Assembly: GCF_007120195.1 (NCBI RefSeq)
Contig: NZ_SKOG01000211.1
Coordinates: 1-45,722, forward strand
Source of the DNA: Aquisalimonas sp.
GTDB taxonomy: Bacteria; Pseudomonadota; Gammaproteobacteria; Nitrococcales; Aquisalimonadaceae
Direction of reading: 5' to 3'
DNA: 45,722 nucleotides
The notes under the pieces are model-generated. The model saw only the letters and a program-made list of their open reading frames with translations, had not been told where the DNA came from and searched no databases. How positions within the stretch are numbered: the stretch's first letter is position 1; each line of letters begins with the position of its first letter. Below, one piece after another: positions 22,738 to 24,058 of the stretch. The position numbers were made by a program, and so were the translations under genes.

Positions 22738-23187
22738 TCAGCGCGAGGGAGAGGTCTCCAGCCAGAAGGTCACGGGACCGTCGTTGATCAACCAGACTTG
22801 CATATGCGCACCGAAACGCCCGGTGGCCACCGGCGCATGCGCCGCCCGCGCGGCCTCCACCAGACTCTCAAACCAATACCGGCCCTCCTCCGGTGCCGCC
22901 GCCGGGCCAAACCCGGCACGCGTGCCCTTGCGCGTATCCGCAGCCAGCGTGAACTGGGGCACTAGCAACAAACCGCCGCCGACAGCCTGCACGGAGCGGT
23001 TCATGCGACCGTCGGCATCCGGAAATACGCGGTAACCCAACACGCGCTCAAGCAGCCGATCCCGCTCCCGCGCGCCGTCCCCCCGCTGCACCCCAACCAG
23101 CACAGCCAGCCCGGTATCTATACGCCCGAGAGTCTCCCCCGCGACCATAACGGACGCTTGCGAGACCCGCTGCAACAGACCGATCAC
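22738..23187 (-). CDS. dtd: D-aminoacyl-tRNA deacylase Dtd
   Basis: Dtd hydrolyses D-amino acids (and glycine) mis-attached to tRNA. The 149-residue protein starts at GTG 23187 (VIGLLQRVSQASV), with AGGAGG six bases upstream; the track's 23214 adds nine unlikely residues. The Gly-cisPro motif is NDGPVTFWLE near the C-terminus. The other active-site motif reads VPQFTLAADT, with Pro where SQFTL is more common. It lies upstream of hisB on the same strand and is divergent from the small-RNA locus. Confidence 0.93.
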   Translation of the reverse strand: MIGLLQRVSQASVMVAGETLGRIDTGLAVLVGVQRGDGARERDRLLERVLGYRVFPDADGRMNRSVQAVGGGLLLVPQFTLAADTRKGTRAGFGPAAAPEEGRYWFESLVEAARAAHAPVATGRFGAHMQVWLINDGPVTFWLETSPSR

Positions 23188-23260
23188 CACAGGCCTCCTG
23201 TTCGCTTGGCCCAACGGGCCCCGGGCAGAAGCCCGGGGGAAGCGGGCTCAATGCACGCCG

Positions 23261-23280
23261 TTGTAAGAAAATGCTTACAA
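23261..23280 (+). promoter_or_regulatory. GacA/UvrY/VarA-type upstream activating sequence
   Basis: TTGTAAG-AAAATG-CTTACAA is a perfect 7-bp inverted repeat with a 6-base spacer. It contains exactly TGTAAG-N6-CTTACA, the consensus bound by GacA upstream of rsmX/rsmY/rsmZ in pseudomonads and related csr sRNA genes. It lies 60-70 bp upstream of the predicted 5' end of the GGA-rich small RNA. It is 74 bp from the dtd start on the other strand. Confidence 0.85.
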
Positions 23281-23329
23281 GACGTGTCGGGTTTTGCCGA
23301 CTTCACCCGGGCCACGGCTGTGGCAAGCT

Positions 23330-23518
23330 GGACCTGTCAGCTGAACGGCAGGATGCCCGACACACCACGGATGGTAAGGAGATAAAAGCAACAACATGGA
23401 TTGCGCCAACTGCGACTCAGGGATGAGCGCGGGTTAACGGACTAACCGCGCAGGGCGCCTCAACAAAAATAAGTAGACCTGACAACCGGCACACGGACGG
23501 TGCCGGTTGTACTTTTTT
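23330..23518 (+). ncRNA. CsrB/RsmX/Y/Z-family CsrA-sequestering small RNA (candidate)
   Basis: This non-coding stretch carries six ANGGA motifs in about 130 bases (ACGGA 23367, AAGGA 23376, ATGGA 23396, AGGGA 23419, ACGGA 23437, ACGGA 23493) plus an AGGA at 23350. Most sit in loops: ACC-ACGGAT-GGT, CAA-CATGGA-TTG, CTC-AGGGAT-GAG, GGTTA-ACGGAC-TAACC and the terminator loop ACGGACG. Hairpins presenting GGA are the hallmark of RNAs that titrate CsrA/RsmA. A perfect GacA box lies upstream and an intrinsic terminator ends the unit. The 5' end is estimated from the UAS distance; the -10 is weak. A 13-codon ORF from ATG 23396 is probably incidental. The exact Rfam family was not tested. Confidence 0.8.
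23482..23518 (+). terminator. intrinsic terminator of the GGA-rich small RNA
   Basis: ACAACCGGCAC and GTGCCGGTTGT form a perfect 11-bp stem with loop ACGGACG, followed by AC and six T (23513-23518). Orientation is plus strand. It lies 22 bp from the end of the convergent phasin-like gene and may also limit transcription from that side, though its minus-strand tail is weaker. The loop itself displays a CsrA-type ACGGA. Confidence 0.9.
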
Positions 23519-23539: not shown

Positions 23540-24058
23540 CTACTTGGCACTGCCTGACCCTTTCCCCCCCGGCTTTCCTGACCCCGTTTGTTGCCCGCCA
23601 ACACGGGCCAACTCCACCATGGTTTCTTGCGCCCGTTGCGCGGCCTGCTGCCAGGCTTCCATGACCTGCCGGCTCTCCTTCTCCCACTGGCTGGACATTT
23701 CGCTCATGTCCATTTTGCGCATACTGCTCAACCATGCATCCCACAACTGCTGCTGGGACTCGGTCCAGCCTTTCATCATCTCCTGCACCTGCTTGCTCCA
23801 TTGCTCCATGCTTTCCGGGCTTTGCTGCCCGGCCTGCGTGGAGAAGCGCTTCGCCCATTCGTTCTGCGCCTCCAGGGCCTGGCGGACCGCCTTTTCCCAT
23901 GCCTCCAGATTGGCCTTGTAGCTGGCCCCTGCCCCGCCGGCACCTTCTGGCAGGTTCTCGCTGAACTGCTTGACTGTGGCCAACCAGCTATCCCACATCT
24001 TGCGCTGGGTTTCAGTCCAGCTGCTCACCAACTGTTCCATCTGCTTGTTCCAGTCCAT
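23540..24058 (-). CDS. phasin/PhaE-like amphipathic helical protein
   Basis: This 172-residue, Trp-, Gln- and Met-rich protein is predicted all-helical, without signal peptide or membrane span. Two related segments (WTETQRKMWDSWLATVKQF near residue 14 and WTESQQQLWDAWLSSMRKM near residue 98) look like an internal repeat. A flexible Gly/Ser/Lys tail ends it. The MDWNKQMEQL...MWDSW pattern recalls PhaE, the non-catalytic subunit of class III PHA synthase, and phasins that coat polyhydroxyalkanoate granules. No phaC is adjacent, so function is inferred only. GGAGG precedes the ATG by five bases and overlaps an ACGGA motif, a possible CsrA site next to the Csr-type sRNA. Confidence 0.6.
   Translation of the reverse strand: MDWNKQMEQLVSSWTETQRKMWDSWLATVKQFSENLPEGAGGAGASYKANLEAWEKAVRQALEAQNEWAKRFSTQAGQQSPESMEQWSKQVQEMMKGWTESQQQLWDAWLSSMRKMDMSEMSSQWEKESRQVMEAWQQAAQRAQETMVELARVGGQQTGSGKPGGKGSGSAK

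Follow-up and report, generated by a model that had tools for sequence, protein, structure and literature searches.

We propose that the intergenic region between dtd and a phasin-like gene of the salt-loving Aquisalimonas, within a 45.7-kb stretch of DNA that was analysed as a whole (the window), very probably harbors an independent small RNA gene that GacA activates and that belongs to the Csr/Rsm kind; its RNA would sequester CsrA. The gene is placed at about 23336..23518 on the plus strand (approximately 183 nt), where a conserved block without a conserved open reading frame precedes a terminator; its 5´ end is estimated at 7 nt after the -10 element and its 3´ end is set at the T run. Upstream lies dtd, encoding D-aminoacyl-tRNA deacylase (22738..23214, minus strand; TIGR00256 with 161 bits, PF02580). 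The convergent downstream neighbour, at 23540..24058 on the minus strand, encodes a phasin-like protein, whose match to PF09361 (E 2.7e-4, 21.5 bits) falls below the cut-off of 24.9 bits. The first matches in a search with this protein came from metagenome-assembled genomes (MAGs) of Aquisalimonas and from A. lutea; NCBI taxonomy files the genus under Ectothiorhodospiraceae, Chromatiales.

The first-pass annotation had already read positions 23282-23518 as a CsrA-titrating sRNA. This reading is supported by the persistence of GGA motifs, by the lack of a conserved reading frame and by the dtd-sRNA-phasin arrangement found elsewhere in the family. The 3´ end given there stands; the 5´ part does not, since 23282-23335 is better regarded as promoter. 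Further support, unseen at that stage, comes from a GacA box, a second dyad, the presence of CsrA, GacA and BarA-like proteins in the genome, and the way in which relatives have lost the sRNA and GacA in parallel.

The GacA box, which the first-pass annotation missed, is in our view the strongest evidence. A perfect GacA/UvrY box (UAS1, TGTAAG-AAAATG-CTTACA) occupies 23262..23279 on the plus strand, just upstream of the previously annotated span, and it belongs to the sRNA gene. It is the sole match without mismatches in the window. TGTAAG-N6-CTTACA is the published consensus for both UvrY (PMC4682653) and GacA (PMC4950607), and homologues carry a GacA-like box with 0-4 mismatches at the matching place. 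Some 66 bp separate the box from the estimated transcript start. Downstream of UAS1 by 23 bp there is a second, degenerate dyad, TGTCGG-GTTTTG-CCGACT (23285..23302, plus strand). Over 21 loci, the palindrome score reaches 4.81/6 at the box and 4.29/6 at offset +23, and the remaining offsets between 1 and 69 all stay at or below 2.52. Because the score is high at exactly +23 bp, the second dyad looks functional, and we suggest that it is probably a second GacA contact or a linker element. In csrB of E. coli, a partial second site follows 5 bp downstream of the 18-bp dyad (PMC4682653), which amounts to the same spacing of 23 bp. Such a tandem dyad at fixed distance offers a testable model of GacA activation at promoters of this type.

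About 20 bp beyond the second dyad, the aligned loci share an invariant TGGCANNNT, represented in the window by TGG-CAAGCT (23321..23329, plus strand); T70, G71, G72, C73, A74 and T78 do not vary among the eight aligned sequences. A scan with the sigma-70 consensus found no promoter, and the -10 element was assigned from conservation instead. We infer that TGGCANNNT serves as a weak extended -10, with transcription starting near 23336 and yielding an RNA of approximately 183 nt. A sigma-54 promoter was considered because of the invariant TGGCA and rejected, as no GC follows at the -12 spacing in those sequences that were inspected by eye.

The position of the box also invites another explanation, namely that it serves the divergent dtd and that the GGA-rich stretch, with its terminator stem, is merely the terminator region of the phasin gene. 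The box indeed lies roughly 50-75 bp upstream of dtd (whose start codon may be located a little inside the annotated 22738..23214), and the convergent phasin transcript, too, could terminate at this stem. Nevertheless, the second dyad, the extended -10, the GGA sites and the T run are all on the plus strand and downstream of the box. Moreover, a covariance model of the 3´ tail, R1, finds the unit together with a GacA box in other families of the order. In L030 (~1614-1800), a natural empty site where dtd adjoins the phasin-like gene with no sRNA in between, the gap is short and contains no such block. Thus we consider this explanation very improbable.

The RNA itself is marked by its GGA motifs. 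All six ANGGA motifs previously noted in about 130 bases are present, starting at 23367, 23376, 23396, 23419, 23437 and 23493 and spanning 131 nt, and a seventh GGA at 23351, within GGCAGGATGCC, is kept in relatives too. Six ANGGA per 183 nt is the maximum in the window, where the mean is 0.62, and occurs once when both strands are considered; among dinucleotide shuffles of the sRNA stretch, 0.02% reach this number. Plain GGA density is ordinary, with at least seven GGA in 5.5% of the segments counted, so it is the ANGGA context that matters. The commonness of plain GGA trinucleotides in this GC-rich DNA, together with a modest folding z-score, might suggest a chance GGA-rich intergenic sequence devoid of function. 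Given that nowhere else in the window is the ANGGA count reached and that the unit and its regulator-binding site are conserved across several families of the order, we assign next to no probability to this view.

The motifs were thought to reside mostly in loops of small hairpins. This holds for four of the six, which occupy clean loops, and fails for those at 23376 and 23396, where no convincing hairpin was found. In plus-strand order, the putative CsrA sites begin with site 0 at 23348..23358, a hairpin of GGCAGGATGCC that is not an ANGGA and whose GCAGG..GC columns are invariant. It is followed by the hairpin ACCA(CGGA)TGGT at 23364..23375, identified from the ANGGA count, the alignment and the folding ensemble; by AAGGA at 23376..23380, which lacks a clear hairpin and whose aligned GGA is conserved; and by ATGGA at 23396..23400, with a weak hairpin at best (CAA/TTG) and a GGA that is invariant in the eight-sequence alignment. 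The hairpin CTCA(GGGA)TGAG at 23416..23427 has position-matched counterparts in relatives, namely TCA(CGGA)TGA, GTC(AGGGAG)GAC and GTC(ACGGAC)GAC. The last internal hairpin, GGTTA(ACGGAC)TAACC at 23432..23447, keeps its shape with differing stems in five species. Its counterparts have stems GGGTTGA/TTAACCC, CGGGT/GCCCG, CGATTA/TGATCG and CGATCA/TGATCG, i.e. the changes compensate each other; the pairs were compared by hand, as the hairpin of one species is one base out of register in the MAFFT alignment. RNAalifold on four members of the genus gives little covariation; the support for hairpins comes from these position-matched structures and from the terminator.

In the folding ensemble of the window's sRNA, the GGAs are mostly unpaired (mean P(unpaired) 0.80 vs 0.23 for other G), and forbidding them to pair costs only about 3 kcal/mol. 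For relatives L062 and L063, the predicted accessibility is low, with mean P(unpaired) of 0.42-0.43. The global folding energy of the region is unremarkable, slightly better than that of shuffles (z -1.6). Judged from motif context and predicted structure, these GGA sites would be bound by CsrA.

The terminator is as originally described: an 11-bp stem, an ACGGACG loop and six T at 23482..23518 on the plus strand. The loop is itself an ANGGA site, and the stem covaries among 20 sequences. Between the last internal hairpin and the terminator, tail alignment delimits a 3´ linker (23449..23481, plus strand), the counterpart of a conserved element GCGCAGATCACCTYCAGCYAAGTG. This element, or a near variant of it, precedes the terminator in most homologues; L058, L061, L065-L070 and L072-L074 carry it. 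In several homologues it matches the 3´ end of 16S rRNA (anti-Shine-Dalgarno) over approximately 10 nt, and GATCACCTCC equals that anti-Shine-Dalgarno sequence. The linker has diverged in the window's genome, where the element is lost and the copy reads GCGCCTCAACAAAAATAAG; it is likewise absent from L075 and L076 among the homologous loci compared. Some minimum free energy (MFE) folds suggest that the element might pair with the RNA's own GGA sites; pairing with mRNAs may be its alternative role.

This tail gives rise to a different account of the gene, in which a Gac-activated sRNA acts by base-pairing of GATCACCTYCAGC, similar to this 16S rRNA end and carried by most members of the family, with ribosome-binding sites of mRNAs, the GGA motifs being secondary or part of a dual function. 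Such an account draws on the tail element CACCTNCAGC, which, the window's own species apart, most homologues conserve and which CsrA binding does not explain. It is at odds with the window's copy and with L075 and L076, where the GacA box and GGA motifs persist without the element, and with several MFE folds in which the tail pairs inside the RNA; we regard it as unlikely. We are similarly doubtful about a two-headed Rsm RNA, which would combine CsrA sequestration through GGA hairpins with pairing of GATCACCTYCAGC either to ribosome-binding sites or, as an internal switch, to the RNA's own GGA sites. In that event the Aquisalimonas copy would represent a derived form from which the GATCACCTYCAGC element was lost.

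Conservation of the gene was followed within the genus and beyond. A homologue is carried by A. lutea CECT 8326. DNA search located the sRNA unit in three additional genomes from the genus, and comparison of dtd-phasin intergenic regions revealed the same arrangement with box, GGA sites and terminator in L024, L026, L027, L028, L029 and L031. L023 shows it in part, as the contig ends before dtd. Two observations could have spoken against the original reading, loss of the GGA motifs in relatives and a protein-coding frame through the region. The motifs persist despite strong sequence divergence, and insertions, deletions and stops leave no conserved reading frame.

R1 was built from eight sequences including the window and covers the last 71 nt only. 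It has matches in 20 of the 54 genomes of the order, the window's own being a match by construction, and it finds a single copy of the sRNA in the window's genome. The inspected matches have a GacA-like box upstream, and nearly all have several ANGGA; neither the box nor the ANGGA cluster is part of R1, apart from the GGA in the terminator loop. Even the weakest of these matches, L076 (E 4.9e-4), is accompanied by a perfect GacA box and five ANGGA. Outside the order, R1 gave only two weak matches among 369 genomes of the class. Both (L078 and L079) were rejected, as they lack a GacA box and show at most a few ANGGA around the terminator-like match. In the window's genome, other GacA boxes with one mismatch (C202:6936 and C253:10233) have no adjoining GGA cluster, so that a second copy was not found. 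A phage collection contained no similar sequence.

Two further loci deserve mention in their own right. At L015 (G034:C1 near 112938, minus strand), 13 ANGGA in approximately 330 nt lie behind a perfect GacA box. This is a candidate for a second sRNA, similar to CsrB, since the genome already bears the one recognized by the tail model. L006 (G015:C2:69838), from a genome without an R1 match, combines a GacA box, a second dyad, GGA sites and a terminator. It is probably a diverged member of the same sRNA family whose terminator loop has no GGA.

The presumed protein partners are encoded in the window's genome. There is one CsrA (118.1 bits, cut-off 73) and one UvrY/SirA/GacA equivalog (293.2 bits, cut-off 280). 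The latter identification rests on the NCBIfam result and not on the search with a UvrY query. The gacA gene lies directly beside uvrC, a neighbourhood also known from other Gammaproteobacteria. On the same contig, at a distance of about 7 kb, a BarA-like kinase is encoded (628.8 bits, below the cut-off of 890 for the E. coli-type equivalog).

Throughout the order, the presence of the sRNA tracks that of close GacA orthologues, and CsrA is usually kept. CsrA was found in 50 of 54 genomes and a close GacA orthologue (E at most 1e-80) in 22. The sRNA is present in 19 of these 22 vs 1 of the 32 remaining genomes, the exception being G002, an 82% complete MAG; G015, G020 and G045 possess close GacA and give no R1 match. 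With a looser threshold of 1e-45, by which more distant GacA-like proteins from family f5 are brought in, the association weakens (19/32 vs 1/22). The Fisher value for joint presence, 1.5e-10, ignores phylogeny; repeated losses are the better argument. In one genus, G013 has both sRNA and GacA, and G007, G010 and G012 have neither; in another, G036, G040 and G042 have both, and G049 and G053 neither. Genus g9 (14 genomes of a small size, 1.2-2.2 Mb) contains neither close GacA nor the sRNA, and 13 of its 14 genomes encode CsrA. In this genus, CsrA thus occurs naturally with its usual antagonist missing. Taken as a group, the several lineages that lost GacA and sRNA jointly and kept CsrA amount to a natural experiment on what CsrA does when that antagonist is gone. 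Separately, divergent second CsrA homologues were noticed in G003 (G003:C1:477215, L040), G025, G027, G031, G033 (which also has a third), G034 and G038.

The probable course of events is as follows. A kinase of the GacS/BarA type would phosphorylate GacA, which in this form would bind the 18-bp dyad (23262-23279) and, probably, the weaker one at offset +23 as well. Transcription would then start at about 23336 from the poor extended -10, and the RNA of approximately 183 nt would end with the intrinsic terminator, at 23518. CsrA dimers would bind the seven GGA sites of this RNA, several of which lie in hairpin loops including that of the terminator. CsrA would be kept off its mRNA targets in this way, and its regulation relieved or reversed. 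Transcription, GacA binding, CsrA binding and titration are all deduced here from sequence.

The first-pass annotation spoke of the CsrB/RsmX/Y/Z type, which is apt for the mechanism and does not apply to the sequence family. When Rfam models, including CsrB, CsrC, RsmX, RsmY, RsmZ and PrrB, were run on the window, no match reached the gathering cut-off and none of the Csr/Rsm families appeared up to E 10. Among relatives, the best Csr/Rsm score was 20.2 bits for RsmY, vs a gathering score of 57. With scores below threshold, the locus falls outside those sequence families. In keeping with the earlier suspicion that the RNA may be undescribed, Rfam lists no such RNA in the group, and no paper describing it was found in the literature searched at the level of main texts.

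RsmX, RsmY and RsmZ of Pseudomonas, and PrrB, are 110-200 nt long, a range that covers the Aquisalimonas sRNA, which is shorter than CsrB and CsrC and has fewer GGA sites than these. The former group shares with it the upstream TGTAAG-N6-CTTACA (PMC4950607), ANGGA in hairpin loops and an intrinsic terminator; the Aquisalimonas sRNA differs in the ANGGA of its terminator loop, its order-specific 3´ element, its single copy and the lack of Rfam-level similarity. CsrB and CsrC of enterobacteria, controlled by BarA-UvrY, resemble it in the upstream GacA/UvrY dyad, multiple GGA and intrinsic terminator, and csrB also in its extra half site (PMC4682653). In their case, however, the dyad lies approximately 182 bp from the start (PMC4682653), compared to approximately 66 bp from the estimated start here, and again there is no Rfam match. 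InvenireSRNA and its predecessor recognize CsrA-regulating sRNAs by at least two ANGGA, a poly-U stretch no more than 60 bp from the last of them and a Rho-independent terminator (PMC5568370). The Aquisalimonas sRNA satisfies this rule; none of the Ectothiorhodospiraceae-related genera we searched for is named in the main text of that work.

Taken together, the locus combines several GGA sites, a good share of them in loops, with an upstream 18-bp dyad and an intergenic, non-coding setting closed by a terminator, in a genome that encodes CsrA and GacA. On these sequence features it adds a new member to a known functional class, the Gac-activated CsrA-sequestering sRNAs, for which Rfam holds no corresponding family. 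It would supply the RNA component so far missing from the Gac/Csr cascade in a gammaproteobacterial order, mostly halophilic and alkaliphilic, that is blank in Rfam-based annotation, and the alignment is ready to found a new Rfam family.
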